Shown here one piece after another: positions 5,174 to 22,527 of a stretch of 47,988 bases of DNA (positions are counted from its first letter, which is position 1; each line of letters begins with the position of its first letter). The notes below the pieces were generated by a model. That model was not told the origin of the DNA. It made no database searches and saw nothing but the letters and a program-made list of their open reading frames with translations. The stretch is from a virus. A program made the translations under genes and the position numbers. Location of the stretch: positions 1 through 47,988 of the IMG/VR virus record IMGVR_UViG_3300028596_000021; one strand, given 5' to 3'.

Positions 5174-6964
5174 GTGGCGGACCAGTTCGATTTCGTGTGC
5201 GAGGTGGTACAAGCCAGAACCGGCAAGGCGCTGGTGTCGGCCGGACACAACCGCATCAAGGCGTTGTGTCCGGCCCACCCGGACGACAAGCCGTCTCTGT
5301 CGCTTCGCAAGGACGAGGAGAAGGGGAAGATCTACGCCCGTTGCTTCGCCGGCTGCAGTTTCGACGACATCGTCGCGGCGCTGGACCTGACCGCTCGGGA
5401 CTTCCGGCTGAAGGGTGCTCCGAGCAGGAATGGACATGGGAAGAGTCCGGCTACTCGGCCGGAACGCACCTCGCGTTCGTCCAAAGACGACTCGGTGGGC
5501 GAAGAGGTCGAGCGATACGCCTACACCGACGAAGACGGGAAGGTTCTGTACTACAACATTCGGTTCGAACCGAAGGACTTCCGTCTCGCGGACAAGAACG
5601 GCAAACGGGCGAATCTACCCAAGAATATGCGTTGGGTACCCTACAACCTTCCGGCCGTGCTGGAAGCGATTGCCGAAGGCCGAACCGTCTACTGGGTGGA
5701 AGGTGAGCGCGACGTCAAGTCACTGAAATCTCGGGGCGAGGTAGGCACCACTAACGCGGGTGGGGGTAACCGGCCGCTGGACCCAGAATGGGCACAGTTG
5801 TTCGAAGGCGCGGACGTGGTCGTGGTTTGTGACCGAGATAAAACCGGACAAACGTACGGCCGAGCGGTCGCCCGCCTGCTAATTAACTCGGTGAACTCCA
5901 TTCGGCTAACTCAGTCTGCTACACCGCAGGTCAAGTCGGACGTAACCGATCACCTGAACGCCGGATACGAGCTGAACCAGCTAGAGCCGCTGCCGATGAG
6001 GTCAGTCCGGCGTACCCGCTGGTCAGTTGCGGCAATCATGGAGACCCAGCCTGAGCCGCTGCGGTGGGTTCTACCGGGCGTGATTCCGGAGGGGCTAACG
6101 CTGCTGGTCGGTGCTCCAAAGGTCGGCAAATCGTGGTGGAACATCAACCTGATGGCCGCGTTGGGGTCCGGTAGACCCAAGGACGTGTTCGACTGGGGGC
6201 AACCAATCGACCCCAGCCCGAACCTGTACCTGGCCTTGGAGGATCCGCACCGTCGTGTTTGGTCACGAATGCGGCAGGTCACGCGCGGTTTGCACTTCCC
6301 AGCTCACCTGGCCGGAGACGTCTGGCTTGATCTGGAGCAGATCGAAAAGGGCGGCAAGGACGAAATCGAGAAGTGGCTGGACACGCATCCGACGGCTCGG
6401 GTGGTACTGGTAGACGTGCTGGCTAAAGTACGGGGTGGGTCCGACGAGGCCTCGTCCGGAATGTACCAAGCCGATTACCAAGCGGTGTCGATCCTAAAAG
6501 AGATCGCGGACAGCTACGGGATCGGCGTGGTGGTCACGCACCACGACCGTAAGAAAACCAGCGAAGACTTCCTCGACATGGTTTCGGGTACTAAGGGCGT
6601 GACTGGCGCGGCCGACACAATCCTGTACCTGACTAGGGAACGAGGGTCTACCGCAGGGTTGTTGCGGGTGGAGTCGCGCGACGTCGAGGAATGTCAGTAC
6701 AAGATGGAGTTCGTCCGAGAGACCGGCCGTTGGCATATCGTGGCCAAGGAGGATCTCGGAACCGAACCGGACAAACCTCAAGTGGAACTGCTGGACGAGA
6801 TCGAGCGGCTACTATCGGCTCGGGGGTACGCCCGAGTCCAGGAGATGGCGGACATCTTGCACCGAGGCAGCCAGGAGATTCTGTCCGAGTGCAAAAAAGG
6901 CGAACAGCAAGGTTCTCTGATGAAGACCCGGGACGGGAGCTGGTGTGTCCCCGCTAAGAGATGA
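5174..6964 (+). CDS. Primase-helicase (TOPRIM plus RecA-like ATPase)
   Basis: 596 residues. The N-terminus has a primase-type zinc site, CPAHPDDKPSL (Cys32, His35) and CFAGC (Cys57, Cys61). A TOPRIM domain follows, with VYWVEGERD (Glu176) and VVVVCDRDKTG (Asp220, Asp222). The C-terminal half is a RepA/DnaB-like ATPase: Walker A GAPKVGKS (313-320), ALEDP, Walker B VVLVDVLAK and a VVVTHHDRK strand. A winged-helix-like tail ends the protein. It should prime and unwind DNA at the phage fork. The start is GTG, preceded by GGAACGGGG. It overlaps the polymerase gene by 20 bases. Confidence 0.88.
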   Translation: MADQFDFVCEVVQARTGKALVSAGHNRIKALCPAHPDDKPSLSLRKDEEKGKIYARCFAGCSFDDIVAALDLTARDFRLKGAPSRNGHGKSPATRPERTSRSSKDDSVGEEVERYAYTDEDGKVLYYNIRFEPKDFRLADKNGKRANLPKNMRWVPYNLPAVLEAIAEGRTVYWVEGERDVKSLKSRGEVGTTNAGGGNRPLDPEWAQLFEGADVVVVCDRDKTGQTYGRAVARLLINSVNSIRLTQSATPQVKSDVTDHLNAGYELNQLEPLPMRSVRRTRWSVAAIMETQPEPLRWVLPGVIPEGLTLLVGAPKVGKSWWNINLMAALGSGRPKDVFDWGQPIDPSPNLYLALEDPHRRVWSRMRQVTRGLHFPAHLAGDVWLDLEQIEKGGKDEIEKWLDTHPTARVVLVDVLAKVRGGSDEASSGMYQADYQAVSILKEIADSYGIGVVVTHHDRKKTSEDFLDMVSGTKGVTGAADTILYLTRERGSTAGLLRVESRDVEECQYKMEFVRETGRWHIVAKEDLGTEPDKPQVELLDEIERLLSARGYARVQEMADILHRGSQEILSECKKGEQQGSLMKTRDGSWCVPAKR

Positions 6965-9050
6965 CCTGTTGCCCTCGCAGTTGCCGGACCCGTCCGACAT
7001 TCCCGGCACCGTGTTCCTGGACTGGGAGACGTCCGGACTGTACCCAGACGACGGTGCACGAATCGCGTCGGCTGGAGTGGCCTTCCGGTTTCGGGGCGAG
7101 GTGGTCTCGTTCGCTTGGCCGTTCAACCAGGGGCTGTACGGTAAGCCCGAGATCGAGACCGCCCGGTTCGGCTGGGAAGAGGGCCGGGAGATCACGGGGT
7201 ACTATGTGAACGACAGCCCCAAAACCGGGGCCAAGAAGGGTGATCCTAAGTACCGCAACACAAAACGGAAGCTGACGGCCGAGGAGGTCCTGCCCCCTAA
7301 TCCGAATCTAGGTCCGACCGAGTGGAACGCGCTCACCGCGTGGCTCCTAGAGAACGACATCGCCGCCCACAACCTGATGTTCGAGATTGTCATGGCTGGG
7401 TACGGAGTCAATCCGGAGATGCCAGGTGTCGACTTGATGCCGAACGGGGTGTGGTGCACCTTCCTAGGGAATCACCTGCTGGATCCGCAGCACAAGAAGG
7501 GGCTTAAGGAAACTGCCGACCGTCTGTACGGCGAGGCTCCGGACGAACAGAAGGTGCTTACCGACCACCTGAAAGAGCGCGGGGTGCCGGCGAAGCGGTA
7601 CGACTTGGCGGACTGGGACGTCATCAAGCCTTATTTGCTCGGGGACGTCCGGAAGGGTATCCGGTTGGCCTTGCATCAGTACCTGCGGTTCCGGGGACAC
7701 GAGGCTCGGATGGCACGGATGCACGAGCACATCCGAGAGCTGGATTGTTTCGTCCGACAGGAGCGGCGAGGTGTCCCGTACAACGCGACAGAGTCGCTGC
7801 GATGGGCCGACAAGATCGACGCGGCGGCTGACGAGCTGGAAAAGCAGATTCCGTTCCGAACCACCAACCCCGGGGCGGTGCAGTTCTATTTCACTAAGGA
7901 CGTGCTGGAGGACGGTACCCATTGTTTGGGGCTAAAACCGGTCAAGATGACCGCCCCGTCCAAAACCGCCCCCCTGGGAAACCCCAGTCTGGACGCTGAG
8001 GTGTTGGAGCAGCTGGATCAGCGGGACGTCCCGCACGCTCGCAAGTTCTACCGACTGCGTCAACTGAAGGACGCGAACGGGCGGTATTACCGGGGCTATG
8101 CTGAAGCTCTCGGGCCGGACGGACGGCTCCGGACGCGGTTCCGCCAGGTGGGCACCGCTACTGGACGAGCCTCCTGCGAACGCACGAACATGATGGCGAT
8201 TCCGCATGACCACCGGATGCTGGCGGCGGGGGCAGCGATCCTGCTGGAAGCTCCATCGCCGCGTGCGCTGATCGAGGCCCCGCCCGGATTCGAGCTGTGG
8301 CACATGGACTTGATGCAAGCCGAGCTTCGGGTGGCCACCCAATTCGCGCGGTGTGTCCGGATGTGGGAGACCATCGAACAAAACCGGGACCCGCACGGCG
8401 AAACCGCGATTGGTCTAGGTCTGGTGACCGGACCAGAGGACCCGGGGTGGTACAAGGGGCGGTCGGTGATCGGCAAGCGTTCGAACTTCAGCCTGATCTT
8501 CGGGGTGGGACATCGGACGTTCCGAGCGGACCTGCGCAAACAGTCCGGGCTGGATCTGGAGGTTCCGGACCACGTCTGTGTTACAGGGAAACGAGGGTGC
8601 ACTCGGCGAAACTGCAAGGTCAAGGAGCTGGTCGAGGCCTGGCACGAGCTGTACCCTGAGTTCCGTCCGACTATCGACACCTATATGAACGCGGCCGAGT
8701 ACGACCATCGGGTGTTGGTCCGGGGCGACCAGTGGCGTTATTTCACCGACGTGGAAATCGCCTATCACGACTTTCACAAAGCGTTCAACAACAAGGTCCA
8801 AGGCAATATCGGGATGTTCACCAAGCGGTGGATGGTCGAGGCGGATGATTTGCTGATGAGCCGGGGCATCCCGGACGACGCGGGGCTGTTGCTGCAGATT
8901 CATGACGCTTTGCTCGTCATGCTGCCGACCGGTATGCGGGACCTGGCTGAGGAATGCGCGGACATCGCGCGCCAGATGTGGACCGAGTGGTTCGAGATCC
9001 CAGGCGGGGTCGATGTCGAGCCGTGGAAGAAAGAGAGGGTAGCGGCGTGA
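6945..9050 (+). CDS. Family A DNA polymerase with 3'-5' exonuclease (DpoZ candidate)
   Basis: 701 residues. The N-terminal exonuclease has VFLDWETSG (Asp26, Glu28), HNLMFE (usually NxxFD; Glu147 replaces Asp) and YLLGD (Tyr230, Asp234). The polymerase domain has TATGRAS (about 404), motif A HMDLMQAELRVA (Asp455, Glu460), motif B GKRSNFSLIFG (Lys511, Phe515) and motif C LLQIHDALLV (Asp654). The Glu that normally follows Asp in motif C is Ala655. Its place directly ahead of purB and purZ makes it the likely polymerase for 2-aminoadenine DNA, by analogy with DpoZ polymerases found next to purZ in other siphoviruses; substrate preference cannot be read from the sequence. The start is GTG 6945 inside the primase end. 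Confidence 0.88.
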   Translation: MSPLRDDLLPSQLPDPSDIPGTVFLDWETSGLYPDDGARIASAGVAFRFRGEVVSFAWPFNQGLYGKPEIETARFGWEEGREITGYYVNDSPKTGAKKGDPKYRNTKRKLTAEEVLPPNPNLGPTEWNALTAWLLENDIAAHNLMFEIVMAGYGVNPEMPGVDLMPNGVWCTFLGNHLLDPQHKKGLKETADRLYGEAPDEQKVLTDHLKERGVPAKRYDLADWDVIKPYLLGDVRKGIRLALHQYLRFRGHEARMARMHEHIRELDCFVRQERRGVPYNATESLRWADKIDAAADELEKQIPFRTTNPGAVQFYFTKDVLEDGTHCLGLKPVKMTAPSKTAPLGNPSLDAEVLEQLDQRDVPHARKFYRLRQLKDANGRYYRGYAEALGPDGRLRTRFRQVGTATGRASCERTNMMAIPHDHRMLAAGAAILLEAPSPRALIEAPPGFELWHMDLMQAELRVATQFARCVRMWETIEQNRDPHGETAIGLGLVTGPEDPGWYKGRSVIGKRSNFSLIFGVGHRTFRADLRKQSGLDLEVPDHVCVTGKRGCTRRNCKVKELVEAWHELYPEFRPTIDTYMNAAEYDHRVLVRGDQWRYFTDVEIAYHDFHKAFNNKVQGNIGMFTKRWMVEADDLLMSRGIPDDAGLLLQIHDALLVMLPTGMRDLAEECADIARQMWTEWFEIPGGVDVEPWKKERVAA

Positions 9051-10231
9051 TCGAGCGGTATAAGGACAGGGCGATTCACGACGTCTGGAATCCGGCGACG
9101 ATCTACCGGCGGTGGCTGGAGGTGGAGATCGCTTACGTCCGGGAGATCGGCGGGGCGGAGGTGGCCGAGGCGCTGGAGAGCGTGAAGCCGCCGTCACCTG
9201 CTCAGGTCAACTACTACGAGCGCGAAACTGGCCACGACGTGGCCGCGTTCTTGGTGGCGTTGGACAAGAACGTTCAGGCCAAAGCCCGGAAAGGCGCGGG
9301 CGGAGATCTGCCGGACACGGTCTGGAATCGAGTCCGGTCCAGCCTGCACTTCAGGCTGACCAGTTCCGACGTGGTGGACACCGCTCTCGCATTGGGAGTC
9401 CTGCGTTCGCGGCTGGTTGTCGAGGACCGGGTGGCGAACCTGATGGGGGTGTTGGAGGCGTTCGCCAACTCGATCTCGGCGTGGGAGATCACACTCGGTC
9501 GTACCCACGGCCAGTTGGCCGCGCCGATGCCAGCCGACCACCGCTGGCGGGTTCTGGGCGAGATGCTGGACCGGGCCTGGACTCGGGCCGATGCTGGGTT
9601 CTTGTGGATGGACGTCGGAAAACTGTCTGGCCCGGTCGGGCTAGCCGATCCGAGCGAGGGACGCGCCTTGCAGAACCTCGGGTTGCGCGACACCACCGCG
9701 ACTCAGATCGTGCCGCGTGACCGACTGGCACATTGGGCACACTGCCTGGCGGAGTTGGCCACGGTGTGCGAGGCGATCGTGACTCAGGTGTGGCTGCTGG
9801 CACAAGCCGGGGTCGGCGAATTGCGGGTGGAGCCAAACGGCACGGTAGGTTCGTCCGCCATGCCGCACAAGGTGAACCCAGTGATCGCGGAGAATGTCCG
9901 GGGGCTCGCCCGAATGGCGAGGTCGCTGGCCGAGACGCTGCAACTCGGGATCGTTCAGTGGGGGGAGCACGACCTCGCCCACAGCTCCGTGGAGCGGGTG
10001 TCGGTGCCAGACTTACTCCACCTGGTGTGCACGATCGTGTCCCGCACGGCCACGCTGGTGTCCGGCGTGTCCTGGGTTGACCCGGGACGTCCGGCGGACT
10101 ATCGGGACAGTAGCGAGGACCTGCGGGCATTACAGGCCAGCGGACGGGCGTACGTCGACGCACACGCCGCGTTGACCGAGCTTTACCGCGACGGTAAGAT
10201 CAGCTACACCACTACCGAGGAGGGCCAGTAA
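9047..10231 (+). CDS. purB: Adenylosuccinate lyase
   Basis: 394 residues, slightly shorter than cellular PurB. Fumarase/aspartase superfamily motifs are all present: TGHDVAAF (61-68), LTSSDVVD (104-111), GRTHGQLAAPM (151-161) with the catalytic His, and the signature GSSAMPHKVNPVIAE (268-282) with the catalytic Ser loop. Cellular PurB removes fumarate from adenylosuccinate and SAICAR. Here it sits one base from a PurZ-type synthetase, so the likely substrate is the succino-2-amino-dAMP that PurZ makes, released as dZMP. Z phages described so far were reported to lean on host PurB, so a phage copy is unusual. GTG start at 9047 (GTGA overlap with the polymerase stop) with GAGAGGGT upstream. An internal promoter for purZ lies inside its 3' end. 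Confidence 0.9.
   Translation: MIERYKDRAIHDVWNPATIYRRWLEVEIAYVREIGGAEVAEALESVKPPSPAQVNYYERETGHDVAAFLVALDKNVQAKARKGAGGDLPDTVWNRVRSSLHFRLTSSDVVDTALALGVLRSRLVVEDRVANLMGVLEAFANSISAWEITLGRTHGQLAAPMPADHRWRVLGEMLDRAWTRADAGFLWMDVGKLSGPVGLADPSEGRALQNLGLRDTTATQIVPRDRLAHWAHCLAELATVCEAIVTQVWLLAQAGVGELRVEPNGTVGSSAMPHKVNPVIAENVRGLARMARSLAETLQLGIVQWGEHDLAHSSVERVSVPDLLHLVCTIVSRTATLVSGVSWVDPGRPADYRDSSEDLRALQASGRAYVDAHAALTELYRDGKISYTTTEEGQ
10183..10200 (+). promoter_or_regulatory. Dyad promoter-operator 3, inside purB
   Basis: TTACC-gcgac-GGTAAGAT, a perfect dyad within purB codons that end the protein. The -10 is TAAGAT at 10195-10200, without the TG extension. Transcription would start near 10207, giving purZ its own leader of about 24 bases with GAGGAGGG. 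It would let purZ and the genes behind it be expressed apart from the polymerase. Confidence 0.6.
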
Positions 10232-11292
10232 TGGCACGGAAGATTCAGGTGATCGTAGGAGGCCAGTTCGGGAGCGAGGGCAAAGGCCACTGCGCGGTCG
10301 AACTCGCCAGGCGCGAGGACGAGATGCTCGCGATCCGAACTGGTGGCCCAAACGCGGGACACACCGCGTACGGAGTCGCGGGTTTGGAGATCAAGGCCGC
10401 CACCCGGGAGTTCAAGCTCCGTCAGGTGCCGGTGGCGGCGGTGGCCAACCCCCGAGCTACCTGCGCGATCTCGGCCCGGTCGCTGGTCCAGTTGGACCTG
10501 GTCGAACGTGAGGCCAAGGAGACCGGCGTTCCGGTGTTGGTTATCGACCAGGCGGCTACGGTTCTGGAGTCGGCGCACATCACGGTCGAGGAGGCCGACG
10601 ATTCGTTGGCGTGGGGTTCTACCCGCAAGGGGATCGGAGCCGCCCGGATGGACCGGCTCCACCGGACCGCGCGCACCTGGGCCGACCTGGTGCCCTACTA
10701 CGACACCACCAAACTGGTCGAGGCGGACGTGGCGCGGCTGGCCCGCAACTTCCTGAACGGTGGGGCCACGGTCCAGATCGAGGCCGCCCAGGGGTACGGT
10801 CTGGGACTGCACACCGAGTTCTACCCGAAAACCACGTCGGCCGACTGCCGGGCGATCGACGCCTTGGCCGACGTCGGACTCTCGCCGTGGGAATTCTCGA
10901 ACACGGAACTGGAGATCTGGGTGGTGGTCCGACCGTACCCGATTCGAGTCGCGGGGGATTCCGGCCCACTGCGCAACGAAACCAGCTGGGAGGCGCTAGG
11001 TCTGCCGGCTGAGCGGACCACGGTCACGAACAAGGTCCGGCGCGTCGGGCTGTGGGACCCGACGCTGGTCGCCGAAGCGGTGCTGGCCAACGGCGTCCGC
11101 AACGTCAAGCTGTGGATGAACATGGCCGACCACCCGTACCCGTTCTTGTCCGGATTGACCTCGCTGGACGAGGTGTACGACAAGCGTTTCAAGGACGTCG
11201 AGGCGTGGTTGGAGCGGGTCGAGATCCAAACCGGTGCCAAGGTGGCCGCGCTGGGTACCGGACCGAACACCGCGATCTTCCTGGAGGACTGA
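10231..11292 (+). CDS. purZ: PurZ-type (2-amino-deoxy)adenylosuccinate synthetase
   Basis: 353 residues, close to phage PurZ and clearly shorter than cellular PurA (about 430). The P-loop reads GGQFGSEGKGH: Ser15 stands where PurA has its catalytic Asp (GDEGKG). As I recall, this change marks PurZ enzymes, which use dGMP rather than IMP. Other PurA features remain: GGPNAGHT with catalytic His44, GSTRKGIGAAR (129-139), and IEAAQG with Gln187. The enzyme would join aspartate to dGMP with ATP or dATP energy, forming the precursor that PurB cleaves to dZMP. The start overlaps the purB stop as TAATG and the stop overlaps the next gene as TGATG, so the three are translationally coupled. A standard PurA role is less likely given the Ser, the length and the context. 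Confidence 0.85.
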   Translation: MARKIQVIVGGQFGSEGKGHCAVELARREDEMLAIRTGGPNAGHTAYGVAGLEIKAATREFKLRQVPVAAVANPRATCAISARSLVQLDLVEREAKETGVPVLVIDQAATVLESAHITVEEADDSLAWGSTRKGIGAARMDRLHRTARTWADLVPYYDTTKLVEADVARLARNFLNGGATVQIEAAQGYGLGLHTEFYPKTTSADCRAIDALADVGLSPWEFSNTELEIWVVVRPYPIRVAGDSGPLRNETSWEALGLPAERTTVTNKVRRVGLWDPTLVAEAVLANGVRNVKLWMNMADHPYPFLSGLTSLDEVYDKRFKDVEAWLERVEIQTGAKVAALGTGPNTAIFLED

Positions 11293-11984: not shown

Positions 11985-12250
11985 CCGCGCCGATTAGGCG
12001 TCGTGAGGACGTGATCAGCGACGTCCACACCCTGGCCGAGGAGATGGGGTTTCGTCGCGTTCGGGTGGACCGGTCCCAGTACGAGGACGGCCCCTACATC
12101 GAGGTCGGGTATGCGTCCGAGGAGGTCCACATCCGGACCTCGATCCCTGAGCTGCGGTACCGCAAGCAATGGGACGAGGTGGAGATGGACGACGTCATCG
12201 ACCTGATCGAGCGGCTGCTCGACTGGAACCCCGAGGAGGGGCCGCAGTGA
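11981..12250 (+). CDS. Small acidic hypothetical protein
   Basis: 89 residues with alternating strands and helices and many Glu and Asp (about residues 18-80). It starts in an ATGA overlap with GAGAGGAAGAG upstream and ends in a GTGA overlap with the NDT-dUTPase gene, so it belongs to the nucleotide operon. I do not recognise a family. A regulatory or accessory role in nucleotide metabolism is only a guess from position. Confidence 0.7.
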   Translation: MTAPIRRREDVISDVHTLAEEMGFRRVRVDRSQYEDGPYIEVGYASEEVHIRTSIPELRYRKQWDEVEMDDVIDLIERLLDWNPEEGPQ

Positions 12251-13125
12251 CTGCCTTCGTCTACTTCGCCCACCCGGTCGACTTCGCCGACACCAGGACC
12301 GTGGTGAACGAGATCGCCCGGCAGATCAAGAATGCCGAACTGGCGCTGTACGACCCCGAACTGGCCTGGACGCTCCCGCAGTCGGCAGAGCCGGTCGCCA
12401 CGTTGACCAACGTGAACCGGGCGGTACTGTCCCAGTGCGACGCGGTGATCGCCTACCTGCCTTCGGGTACCCGCACCGTCGGGGTGCCGCGCGAGATCGA
12501 GCAGGCCGTGGCCGAGGGCAAGCCACTGCTGATCGTCTCGGACGCGGACACGTTTCGCCACTCGTGGGCGCTTCCTCAGGAGGACGCGAACGTCCGGCAC
12601 GTCGATTCGTTCAGCCCCAACCAGCTGCCCGGGGGGCTGGGATGGCTCAACGGTCGAGTCCGGCACCTACGTGTTCAGCGCCACCGGACACCGCCCGCCC
12701 AGGCCATGTACGTTCGGCTCGACCCGGGAGCGGCGATCCCCACTCGGGCCTACCAGGGCGACGCGGGGTTCGACATGTACACGACCGAGGAAACGACCAT
12801 TCCGGCAGGTGGGTTCGTCGACGTGCCGGTTGGTATCGCGATCCAGTTCCCCGAGCGGGTGTGGGGGATGATCGTGGGTCGCTCCTCGACCGTGCGCAGG
12901 CTGGACCTGCTGGTGACCCCGGGGGTGATCGATACCGGGTACCGGGGGCCGCTGTACGCGGGGGTTCGGTCCCTGCGAAGCGACGACTACATCGTCAAGA
13001 AGGGTGAACGGCTGGCCCAGATCATTCCGTTCCCGAACGTGGCGATGGGTCTACACGCCACCCCGGTGGACGTCCTTTCTCCGACTGATCGGGGCGAGGC
13101 CGGGTTTGGGTCGTCCGGTGCGTAA
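12247..13125 (+). CDS. NDT-like / dUTPase fusion
   Basis: 292 residues in two domains. Residues 1-115 resemble nucleoside 2-deoxyribosyltransferases: a VYFAHPVDF strand, CDAVIAYLPSG, then GVPREIEQAVAEGKPLLIV with a Glu at the nucleophile position. Residues about 156-292 form a trimeric dUTPase with all five motifs: YQGDAGFDMY, GRSSTVRRL, GVIDTGYRGPLYAG, RLAQIIP and the C-terminal RGEAGFGSSG arm. The dUTPase half hydrolyses dUTP to dUMP and keeps uracil out of DNA. The first half might salvage or sense deoxynucleosides. The fusion closes the nucleotide operon and suggests tight control of dNTP pools. GTG start, GTGA overlap, GAGGAGG upstream. Confidence 0.85.
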   Translation: MTAFVYFAHPVDFADTRTVVNEIARQIKNAELALYDPELAWTLPQSAEPVATLTNVNRAVLSQCDAVIAYLPSGTRTVGVPREIEQAVAEGKPLLIVSDADTFRHSWALPQEDANVRHVDSFSPNQLPGGLGWLNGRVRHLRVQRHRTPPAQAMYVRLDPGAAIPTRAYQGDAGFDMYTTEETTIPAGGFVDVPVGIAIQFPERVWGMIVGRSSTVRRLDLLVTPGVIDTGYRGPLYAGVRSLRSDDYIVKKGERLAQIIPFPNVAMGLHATPVDVLSPTDRGEAGFGSSGA

Positions 13126-18634: not shown

Positions 18635-18652
18635 TTACCAGCAGGGTACAAT
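18635..18652 (+). promoter_or_regulatory. Dyad promoter-operator 5 (terminase)
   Basis: TTACC-agcag-GGTAC followed by AAT. The -10 is TACAAT (18647-18652), the best match to consensus in the set, but the right arm has one mismatch and the TG extension is missing. GTG 18660 begins 7 bases after it, so the terminase mRNA is probably leaderless. Confidence 0.65.
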
Positions 18653-18659
18653 GGGCCGG

Positions 18660-20246
18660 GTGGCACACAGCTTCCCGGTCCGCCCACCGTTCACCGGTTC
18701 CCACGGCGGTCCCAAACACCGCCCAGCTGCCCCCGACCCGTTCGCGATCGCCGCTCGTCGGTTCGTTCGGTCGGGGGCACAGCTGTACCTGCACGACCCG
18801 GTGGGATTCGCCAAAGATTGCATCGTCTGGCCCCCCGCTCGGGGCGAGGAGTCCAGCGGACTCACCACGTACCAACGTGAGATCCTCAACAAGCTAGTCA
18901 CTACTCGCCGCGTCGCTGTCCGAGGACCTCACGGGCTGGGCAAGACCACCACCAACGCCCTGGCCATTCTGTGGTTCGCGGTCACCCGCGAAGCCGCCCG
19001 GATCGACTGGAAGTGCGTCACTACCGCTGGTTCCTGGCACCAGCTGGAACACTACCTATGGCCCGAGGTGCACAAGTGGGCTGCTCGGATCGACTGGGGT
19101 AAGTTGGAACAGGATCCCTGGCGGCCAGACCGCGAACTGCTGTCTCTGAACATCAAGCTCCGGTACGGCTCCGCGTTCGCCGCCGCGTCCACCCGGGTCG
19201 AGCTGATCGAAGGCGCGCACGCCGACCACCTGCTGTTCGTGTTCGACGAGAGCAAGGCGATCAAACCGGATACGTTCGATGCGGCCGAGGGTGCGCTAAA
19301 CGGTCCAGGCGAGGCGTACGCCCTGGCACAATCCACTCCGGGGGAACCTCAGGGCCGGTTCTACGACATCCACCAACAAAAGCCGGGGTATCTGGACTGG
19401 TGGGCTCGACACGTCACGAAACACGAAGTCATAGCGGCAAACCGAATGGACCCGACATGGGCGGAAAACCGCAAACTGCAGTGGGGTTTTAGTTCGGCAG
19501 TTTATCAGAACCGCGTTGAAGGAGCCTTCTTCATAAACGACGAAGACGCCGTCGTTCCTATGTCTTGGGTTGAAGCTGCGAATGAACGCTGGGTGGAGTG
19601 GGATAAAGCTGGAAGACCCTCGAACGATGGTATCGACGTATTCGGTGTGGACGTCGCGAGGGGCGGAAATGACCTCACCGCAGTGGCCCATAGACTGGGT
19701 CCGGTGATCCAGGAAATAGTGACTTGGAACCTGGCCGACACCACCAAGGTCGGGGTCCGGTTGAAGCGTCGGATGCGCCGCCAAACAGACCTCGCGGTGA
19801 TCGACGTGATCGGTGTCGGGGCGGGTGTAGTCGACCTGATGAGGCGGTGGCGAAGGAACGTAGTAGCGTTCAACGCGGCCCGTCGTTCGTCCCGCCGAGA
19901 CCGCTCGGGCTTGTTCGGGTTCAAGAACCAGCGCGCGGCGATGTGGTGGATGATGCGCGAGGCGCTGGACCCTGCGTTCGACCCGGTACTGGCGATTCCG
20001 CCGGACGATGACCTCCTCGGGGAGTTGACCGCTCCGAAGTGGCGGGTCATCGGCGACAAGATCCAGGTCGAGAAGAAAGAGGACGTGAAGTCCCGAATTG
20101 GTCGCTCCACCGACCTGGCGGACGCGGCGTGCCACACCCTGCTGACCGATGCCGAGTTCAACCAACAGGAGTTGCCGGACACACCCACCGCATTCGGCTT
20201 CACTGACTCCCGGGACGAGGACGGTGGGGTCTTCCAATGGTCCTGA
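18660..20246 (+). CDS. Terminase large subunit
   Basis: 528 residues from GTG 18660. The ATPase has Walker A GPHGLGKTT (about 89-97) and Walker B LLFVFDES (about 194-201). The nuclease domain has FGVDVARGGND, LAVIDVIGVGAGVVD and STDLADAACH, the three acidic clusters of the RNase H-like fold. It pumps DNA into proheads and cuts it. I prefer GTG 18660 over ATG 18651 because that ATG overlaps the promoter's -10 and the GTG sits exactly where the transcript should begin. It is separated from the small subunit by about 4.7 kb. Confidence 0.92.
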   Translation: MAHSFPVRPPFTGSHGGPKHRPAAPDPFAIAARRFVRSGAQLYLHDPVGFAKDCIVWPPARGEESSGLTTYQREILNKLVTTRRVAVRGPHGLGKTTTNALAILWFAVTREAARIDWKCVTTAGSWHQLEHYLWPEVHKWAARIDWGKLEQDPWRPDRELLSLNIKLRYGSAFAAASTRVELIEGAHADHLLFVFDESKAIKPDTFDAAEGALNGPGEAYALAQSTPGEPQGRFYDIHQQKPGYLDWWARHVTKHEVIAANRMDPTWAENRKLQWGFSSAVYQNRVEGAFFINDEDAVVPMSWVEAANERWVEWDKAGRPSNDGIDVFGVDVARGGNDLTAVAHRLGPVIQEIVTWNLADTTKVGVRLKRRMRRQTDLAVIDVIGVGAGVVDLMRRWRRNVVAFNAARRSSRRDRSGLFGFKNQRAAMWWMMREALDPAFDPVLAIPPDDDLLGELTAPKWRVIGDKIQVEKKEDVKSRIGRSTDLADAACHTLLTDAEFNQQELPDTPTAFGFTDSRDEDGGVFQWS

Positions 20247-20433: not shown

Positions 20434-20700
20434 ATGTCCGAGTGGACACGAAACGAGAACGATCCGACCACGGGGGAAGCGGTCCGGTGGCACCCGTCCG
20501 ACCTGGACCGGTGCGAACATGGCCGGCATTCGATCGACTCGTGCTTCGACTGTCCGGGTGGTCAGAGCGCGGGGAACGTCTTCCTGTTGGCTCACACGCG
20601 GACTGTCCGGGTCGCGGCCGACGGTCGTGAGGAAGTTCGAATCGGTACGATGGTTCACGGAGAACCGATCTGGGTCAAGCCGAGTAGGGAGCCACGATAA
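20434..20700 (+). CDS. Small zinc-like hypothetical protein
   Basis: 88 residues. A CEHGRHSIDSCFDC motif (about residues 27-40) may bind zinc; the rest is a short beta-rich domain (TVRVAADGREEVRIG). ACGGGAGAG precedes the ATG. The stop overlaps the next start as TAATG. Actinophages often carry such a short protein near the terminase. Function unknown. Confidence 0.65.
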   Translation: MSEWTRNENDPTTGEAVRWHPSDLDRCEHGRHSIDSCFDCPGGQSAGNVFLLAHTRTVRVAADGREEVRIGTMVHGEPIWVKPSREPR

Positions 20701-21008
20701 TGGGAACTGGACACACCGAGTCGCGTCCGGAGCCGTTGCGGGGATGTCGCAAACTGAACGACGAGGAGAAGGCGCTGCTGGACCGGATCAAGCTGGCTGA
20801 GGAGGAGATCGCCGGTCTGTGGGCCGAGGTGCACTACCGGCACAGCACGACCATCAACGCGGCGACCTGCGCGGGCAGTGCGCGTGACCTGTTTCGGCAG
20901 GCATTCATGGAGCTAGTTCGGACCGTGGCTAAGCCGCGTGATCCGTACGGCGAAGCGGTGGAACGGTTGATGGAACAGACGAGGCGCGAGGAGCAGAACC
21001 GTGGCTGA
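20700..21008 (+). CDS. Acb2/Tad1-hairpin-like protein (anti-CBASS candidate)
   Basis: 102 residues, two long helices. The pattern follows Acb2 proteins: an opening RKLNDEEKALLDRIKLAEE helix (Acb2: a YR-L-EEE-L-N-IK type start), a variable turn, then ARDLFRQAFMELVRTVAKP, matching the Acb2 ending with Q-F-M-L-R-VA-P. Acb2 proteins of similar length assemble into small oligomers and soak up the cyclic nucleotides that switch on CBASS defence. This gene lies between terminase and portal, coupled by TAATG at its start, and overlapping the portal by 8 bases. The match is by eye; a structural helper of the portal is the main alternative. Confidence 0.55.
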   Translation: MGTGHTESRPEPLRGCRKLNDEEKALLDRIKLAEEEIAGLWAEVHYRHSTTINAATCAGSARDLFRQAFMELVRTVAKPRDPYGEAVERLMEQTRREEQNRG

Positions 21009-22527
21009 CGAACTCGCGAAGTACGCACCAAACGAGCTGGACCGCGCTACCGCCGAGCGGATGATCGACGAAGAGCGCGGCACGCTGTTCAACTGGCTGG
21101 AGTTCCCGACCTTTCTCGAACTGGAGAAGGGCCGTGTCTCGGAGTACCCGGACCGCGCCTGGATCAACGAGATCATCGAGATGCTCAAGACCGACGGCCA
21201 GGCGCAAGGGGTCGAGCAGGCCCTGACTATGTCGATCCGGCAGGCCAACACCACGATCGAGAAGCCGGAGCGGGACAAGTCCGGCCGAATCACCTCGTAC
21301 GTCGAGGACGTGCTGCTCAAGCCGGCCACCGACGGCGGGATGACCACACCGTTCGATTTGGTGGTCGGCCAGATGACGTTCGCGGCGGCGGTGGCCCGGA
21401 CCTTCCACGAGCTGGTGTGGTGCCGCAGGCCGGACGGCAAGATCGGATTGTGCAAGATAGCGTGGCGGCCCCCGGGCAGCTGCGAGATCCAGCGAGACCG
21501 GGACCACGGCGACCTGGACGGGTTCAAGCAGTACGTCGACTGGGACGCGAAGCGCCGGGTTCCGGCGGTGGACTGGCGCGGCTACACAGACATCCCCTCC
21601 CAGCGTGCGGTCATCCACCTGAACAACCAGCACCGCGATCCGGTGTACGGGTGGTCGGACCTGTCGGTCACCCACTGGGCCTTCCAGCTCAAACGAAAGA
21701 TCATGCTGCTGTGGGTGGCGTTCCTGGACGGGGTGTCGCTCCCGCGCGTACTCGCGTACGGCAACGGTGCGGCCGAGGCCACCAAGAACGCCAAGGCGAT
21801 CGCCGGACTGAAGTCGTCCGGGGTCGCGGCGGTGGACCGGACCGGAACTGACCCCAACGGCAAGATGTTCGATCAGCTGGACATGTCCGGCCAGGGGGCC
21901 GACCAGTTCCTGTCCGCGATGCGGTACCTGGACGGGATGATGAGCCAAAGCGTGCTGGGTGGCTGGATGGACTTGGCGGGAGCGGCTTCCCAGTCCGGAG
22001 CCGGTTCCTACGCGCTATCGGCCGACCAGTCGGGACTGTTTCTGCAGAGCCGGCACGCGGCGGCCCGGGAGATCGCGGCCACGATCAACTACCAGATCAT
22101 TCGGCCACTGGTCCGGGTGAACTTCGGGCCGAAAGCTCCGGTCCCGCTGTTGAAGTTCGAGAAGATCGGTTCGGACCAGGTGTCGAAGGCGATGGAGCTG
22201 CTGGCGTCGCTGGGTTCGGCCCAGAACATTCAGGTGCCGGACGGATTCATCGACCTACTGATCGAGCGGGTGGCCGCGTACCTGGATTTGCCGGACGACC
22301 GGGTCCGCAAGATGATCGCGGAGAACGCGAAGCGTGTCCGGGAGCAGGCGCTGCTGGCTGGCCAGCCCCTACCAGCCCCCGGGACGGCCGAGGGTAACCT
22401 GCAAGACGCCGTAGCGGGGGCACTGTCCTCTGTGGCCCCTCAGGTCACGGGAGGGCCAGCGGGGGGCCAGGACGGGGCATCCGGACAGCCACAGGGTGCG
22501 CCAGCGGCCACAGGAGCGCCGTCATAA
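21001..22527 (+). CDS. Portal protein (DUF935/Mu gp29-like)
   Basis: 508 residues. The domain from about residue 60 to 420 follows the portal layout of Mu gp29-like proteins: helical start, VARTFHELVWCRRPDGK, then LNNQHRDPVYGWSDLSVTHWAFQLKRKIMLLWVAFLDG, and the stem-like helix near AAREIAATINYQIIRPLVRVNFG. The last 60 residues are Ala/Gly/Pro-rich and disordered. It forms the DNA entry ring at one vertex. GTG start at 21001 with GAGGAGC upstream. Unusually, the major capsid gene follows only after about 12 kb. Confidence 0.85.
   Translation: MADELAKYAPNELDRATAERMIDEERGTLFNWLEFPTFLELEKGRVSEYPDRAWINEIIEMLKTDGQAQGVEQALTMSIRQANTTIEKPERDKSGRITSYVEDVLLKPATDGGMTTPFDLVVGQMTFAAAVARTFHELVWCRRPDGKIGLCKIAWRPPGSCEIQRDRDHGDLDGFKQYVDWDAKRRVPAVDWRGYTDIPSQRAVIHLNNQHRDPVYGWSDLSVTHWAFQLKRKIMLLWVAFLDGVSLPRVLAYGNGAAEATKNAKAIAGLKSSGVAAVDRTGTDPNGKMFDQLDMSGQGADQFLSAMRYLDGMMSQSVLGGWMDLAGAASQSGAGSYALSADQSGLFLQSRHAAAREIAATINYQIIRPLVRVNFGPKAPVPLLKFEKIGSDQVSKAMELLASLGSAQNIQVPDGFIDLLIERVAAYLDLPDDRVRKMIAENAKRVREQALLAGQPLPAPGTAEGNLQDAVAGALSSVAPQVTGGPAGGQDGASGQPQGAPAATGAPS

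Follow-up and report, generated by a model that had tools for sequence, protein, structure and literature searches.

A 102-residue open reading frame (ORF) between the large terminase and portal genes of this virus is, on profile evidence, a real, diverged homologue of Acb2, a viral protein that soaks up bacterial alarm molecules. Our preferred reading, to which we assign a probability of roughly 55%, is that it encodes a diverged Acb2-family sponge for a host cyclic nucleotide signal, with an altered ligand range and a probably impaired dinucleotide pocket. The window, that is, the whole virus record of 47,988 bases, holds the gene in an intact frame with an ATG at 20700, 102 codons and a TGA stop at 21006-21008; by eye, a ribosome-binding-like AGGGAG lies 5′ of the ATG. 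The sequence-only reading had placed an ORF here between terminase and portal and had quoted one motif from each end of its protein; both position and setting are borne out, and both motifs are found in the sequence. The gene, its immediate neighbours and the two codons discussed below are as follows.

18651..20246, + strand: large terminase subunit (TerL; phrog_2, E 1.8e-31)
20434..20700, + strand: 88-residue ORF with a conserved Cys/His motif, DLDRCEHGRHSIDSC..CPGGQS
20700..21008, + strand: Acb2-family hairpin protein, 102 residues, with the Pfam hairpin at residues 15-78
20745..20747, + strand: Cys16 codon (TGT), aligned with Tyr8 of T4 Acb2 and Tyr11 of the PaMx33 type
20886..20888, + strand: Asp63 codon (GAC), aligned with Thr68 of T4 Acb2
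21001..22527, + strand: Mu-type portal protein (PF06074, E 6.2e-39)

The genes are tightly packed. The last base of the 88-residue ORF's stop codon is the first base of the Acb2-like gene's ATG. At the other end, the portal gene begins with a GTG at 21001, still inside the Acb2-like gene, and the two share 8 bases.

Homology to Acb2 and predicted fold

The Acb2/Tad1 hairpin family PF24729 aligns to the window protein over 58 of its 58 positions with 24.4 bits (E 3.4e-5), under the curated gathering cut-off of 27 bits. The PHROG family phrog_717 also matches (E 2.6e-5); it takes in ORF24 of phage PaMx46 as well (E 9.8e-33), whose protein is identical to the structurally solved Acb2 of PDB 8h2j. 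A test profile made from ten isolate-phage Acb2 relatives, the window protein being excluded, scores this frame at 34.8 bits and picks it out of the window's 712 frames with E 6.4e-10, against E 2 for the next. Of 20,000 shuffles made as a control, none came to 34.8 bits, the best having 14.1. In the reverse direction, a profile of the window protein and its orthologues alone (A2) finds the 8h2j Acb2 among PDB sequences with E 2.6e-6. By these sequence comparisons, the resemblance to Acb2 exceeds chance. It is a resemblance that only profiles reach: a direct phmmer search of PDB sequences with the window protein did not find Acb2, and direct tblastn against 50,697 phage records gave a single match over most of the query, in Erwinia phage UCB24 (E 9e-3). 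The A2 matches comprise 12 loci, of which L116-L118, being nearly identical copies, were not taken into alignment A4; in a search of genome contigs with the same profile, none of the 199 candidate stretches held a relative. Putative Acb2 genes have already been annotated in actinophages, as reported for Statler (PMC13348362) and for Xandras and BigBubba (PMC11953737).

Like the PaMx33/PaMx46-type Acb2 (PDB 8h2j, 8ixz), the window protein has a first helix of the pattern GxR..L..EE....(D/N)..K and a second helix ending in VR..A.P; unlike it, the protein bears N-terminal and C-terminal extensions and carries Cys16 for Tyr11, Asp28 for Asn23 and Asp63 for the threonine of the GKT/AKT motif. The Tyr11 numbering is one that we take to hold for PaMx33-type Acb2, and it agrees with the PaMx46/8h2j sequence. 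With T4 Vs.4/Acb2 (PDB 7uq2) the protein has the same hairpin in common, the A2 profile matching at E 2.5e-4, whereas the T4 residues Tyr8 and Thr68, which are reported to matter in T4, are replaced by Cys and Asp. Tad1 resembles it in its C-terminal hairpin, PF24729 being common to both by family name, but has been described with an N-terminal β-sheet; no strand is predicted in the window model, in which residues 1-14 have pLDDT under 50.

That model, built from a 14-sequence alignment, is poor overall (mean pLDDT 68.8) and consists of helices at residues 21-48 and 54-76 and an extra C-terminal helix at 82-101. Its top six of 122 PDB matches in Foldseek are all Vs.4/Acb2 chains, at non-significant E-values of 0.14-0.56, and a fold search of BFVD returned non-significant matches only (lowest E 0.49). 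A second aligner, VIA-align, gave Vs.4/Acb2 a Z of about 6, ranking 33rd or lower, against 7.4 for unrelated helical hairpins. Because sensory transducer and Rop helices are thus placed above Acb2, the fold alone is non-specific. The orthologue from locus L018 yields a better model (pLDDT 80.8); there, Vs.4/Acb2 chains take the top nine places among the PDB matches, with E-values from 3.6e-3 to 4.9e-2 and a probability of 1.00. In the Acb2 assignment, then, the fold supports and the sequence decides.

The terminase-portal slot and its alleles

A terminase search of IMG/VR yielded 91 relatives, of which 80 were kept, including L001, which shares 5,629 bases with the window without a difference. 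Besides L001, the hairpin scores above the cut-off in 6 of 79 TerL relatives (4/50 and 2/29), many of these records being fragments. The loci with the nearest terminases, L017, L018 and L020 (TerL identity 77%, 74% and 77%), all carry it, with PF24729 scores of 31.7, 59.0 and 58.8 bits that pass the 27-bit cut-off. All three have the Acb2-like gene in the interval from TerL to portal, its end running 8 bases into the portal gene; the portal starts of L017 and L018 were positioned by alignment. Consistent with a conserved slot, a portal profile returned four loci (L001, the contig of L017, L018 and L020), and the gene directly precedes the portal in 4 of 4. The 88-residue ORF and its Cys/His motif are likewise present in L017, L018 and L020; searches of Pfam, PHROG and NCBIfam gave no match for it. 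Between this ORF and the Acb2-like gene, L017 (7956-8231) and L020 (1459-1731) have a small hydrophobic ORF, which is absent from the window because the two genes there overlap by 1 base.

Short hairpin proteins are also found in actinophages. In L023 (TerL 56%), as in the window, the hairpin gene sits just downstream of TerL; its PF24729 protein differs in being shorter (69 residues) and in scoring far higher (88.9 bits). The second batch of TerL relatives was scanned together with three isolate phages: a PF24729 hairpin was found in SallyK, encoded, unlike that of the window, next to a MazG gene, and none in TurkishDelight or phiAsp2. A home-made profile gave no match in L126-L193; since it also misses the Pfam hairpins of L105 and SallyK, its empty result is no proof of absence. 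A TerL profile search of genome contigs found four TerL relatives (46-53% identity) in metagenome-assembled genomes of Acidimicrobiaceae (two), Gaiellales and Chloroflexi, which do not fix the host.

The packaging module had earlier been called an unusual place for a counter-defence gene. This does not survive comparison, because Acb2 relatives sit similarly in other phages: upstream of an ORF that by eye is terminase-like in Erwinia phage UCB24, between the capsid gene and the head-tail adaptor gene in AV002, and adjoining the tail sheath gene in 1.087.A. Relatives in PaMx46, VP882 and B8b lie outside head genes. A review reports that a capsid mutation can help phages escape CBASS (PMC10419184), and co-production with head genes would fit that report. 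In the UCB24 gene (L003:3980-4423), which lies about 1.1 kb upstream of the terminase-like ORF, the Acb2-type hairpin is joined in one protein with a crAss001_48 domain (PF21825, E 2.5e-15).

The slot is fixed; its occupant is not. L017 and L020 align at 96.3% identity over 5,752 columns, and their synonymous divergence (dS) is 0.07 in TerL, 0.00 in the 88-residue ORF and 0.04 in the portal gene, against 0.94 in the Acb2-like gene. At the protein level, TerL and portal are 99-100% identical and the Acb2-like proteins 48%. In 75-base bins the drop in identity is limited to L017 8223-8522, the Acb2-like gene, with a slight fall in the preceding 225 bases; the excess divergence is thus found in this gene alone. 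Since the flanks are near-identical while this gene has a dS of 0.94, the simplest reading of this one phage pair is that recombination probably replaced the allele. Related phages thus appear to trade different Acb2-like versions at one fixed site, and this pair offers a case in which the allele changes while terminase and portal stay near-identical. A literature search on acb2 allele exchange turned up no report among the matches listed, as judged by titles and the starts of abstracts. Across six pairwise comparisons, dN/dS of the Acb2-like gene is 0.33-0.63, with dS near saturation in most pairs; across pairs it is 0.02-0.26 for TerL and 0.11-0.32 for portal. Such values fit a gene that still functions, its constraint being relaxed or diversifying, rather than a dead one.

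Ligand-site residues and the function of the protein

Residues at putative ligand-site positions were counted in 24 distinct aligned sequences, window included, whose rows are non-independent. At the position of T4 Tyr8, 23 of the 24 have tyrosine and the window alone has cysteine (Cys16). At that of Thr68, threonine occurs in 22, the window having Asp63 and L017 glycine. A nearby arginine present in 21/24 is Thr56 in the window protein; Lys31 and Arg74 (23/24 each) are both retained. Among the slot orthologues, L018 and L020 keep both Tyr and Thr as well as the AKT motif, L017 keeps Tyr only and has lost the motif, and the window has neither residue. Cys16 is seen in one sequence, the copy in L001 being non-independent, and could yet be an assembly error, its codon lying one base from Tyr; Thr to Asp requires at least two changes.

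Both positions have a record in T4. There, a Y8A substitution is reported to disrupt dinucleotide binding and abolish function, F82C is described as an escape mutation that changes a residue involved in base stacking (both PMC12657218, PMC12657230), and a natural T68M is reported to reduce binding (PMC12657230). A review describes the trinucleotide pocket of Acb2 as separate from the dinucleotide site. With Cys and Asp at the Y8 and T68 positions, the window protein was not filed as a cyclic-dinucleotide-binding Acb2. Of the proposal that this is an Acb2-like anti-CBASS candidate, the homology stands, carried by Pfam, PHROG, the profiles and the L018 model, whereas the dinucleotide-binding role is not supported for this copy. 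Nor is there support for its binding both classes of cyclic nucleotide, di- and tri-, and stopping CBASS, the two positions tied by experiment to dinucleotide binding in T4 being altered.

An ordinary Acb2, binding cyclic di- and trinucleotides and blocking CBASS while tolerating Cys16 and Asp63, is on this evidence rather doubtful. Full-length hairpin homology, the retained Lys31 and Arg74, and the orthologues L018 and L020 with their Tyr and AKT motif all speak for it, but at the two changed positions the T4 substitutions Y8A and T68M are reported to abolish function and to reduce binding, respectively. Acb2 activity is described as shielding T4 from CBASS yet triggering Panoptes (PMC12657218), and a phage might conceivably have dropped dinucleotide binding to evade such a guard, or be in the course of losing the gene. 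Natural cases of acb2 loss or site loss are reported for T2, Bas35 and PaMx41 (PMC12657218, PMC12657230), and L017 too has lost the AKT motif; against this, the reading frame is unbroken and all six pairs have a dN/dS below 1, making a binding-dead protein quite improbable. That the gene stays an open reading frame we count in favour of retained function. Re-use of the Acb2 fold as a packaging or head-assembly accessory would accord with the neighbouring terminase and portal genes, the 8-base overlap maintained in L017, L018 and L020, the C-terminal helical extension and the altered ligand residues. Such an accessory is nevertheless highly unlikely, given that few TerL relatives carry the hairpin above cut-off (6/79, with the caveat on fragments above), that the gene is strongly divergent between two phages with TerL and portal 99-100% identical in protein, and that relatives also occur outside head genes.

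The preferred reading, a diverged sponge, may be laid out as follows. The product of this Acb2-family descendant is most likely still a small helical protein, which would sequester a host alarm signal of the cyclic nucleotide type. Its cyclic dinucleotide pocket is probably impaired and its ligand range may have changed. As the overlapping reading frames suggest, the protein would be made together with the packaging genes, and the locus may act as an allele-swapping counter-defence slot linked to host immunity. A more elaborate version, in which the slot is an exchangeable cassette of dinucleotide-binding and non-binding alleles that follows whether local hosts carry CBASS or, like Panoptes, a guard penalizing Acb2 activity, strikes us as unlikely. 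Across this one slot runs a natural series: L018 and L020 have Tyr and Thr, L017 has Tyr alone, and the window has neither. It is an allele set for testing the binding cost of each step.

Several observations concern other genes. In Pseudomonas phage vB_PaeS-D14B (L012:4001-4228), an Acb2-like frame lies opposite an annotated CDS, so the gene may have been called on the wrong strand; in phage MR6 (L013:3001-3231), the annotation calls an Acb2 relative an NAD/FAD-utilizing enzyme. Elsewhere in the window, all on the + strand, a DpoZ-like DNA polymerase gene (6945-9047; NF038381, 338.5 bits) and a PurZ-like gene (10231-11289; NF038379, 275.3 bits) score just below their cut-offs of 350 and 300, respectively, and the phage DNA may contain 2-aminoadenine. 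A single frame at 12169-13122 encodes a dUTPase preceded by a part that resembles nucleoside deoxyribosyltransferases but scores below cut-off.
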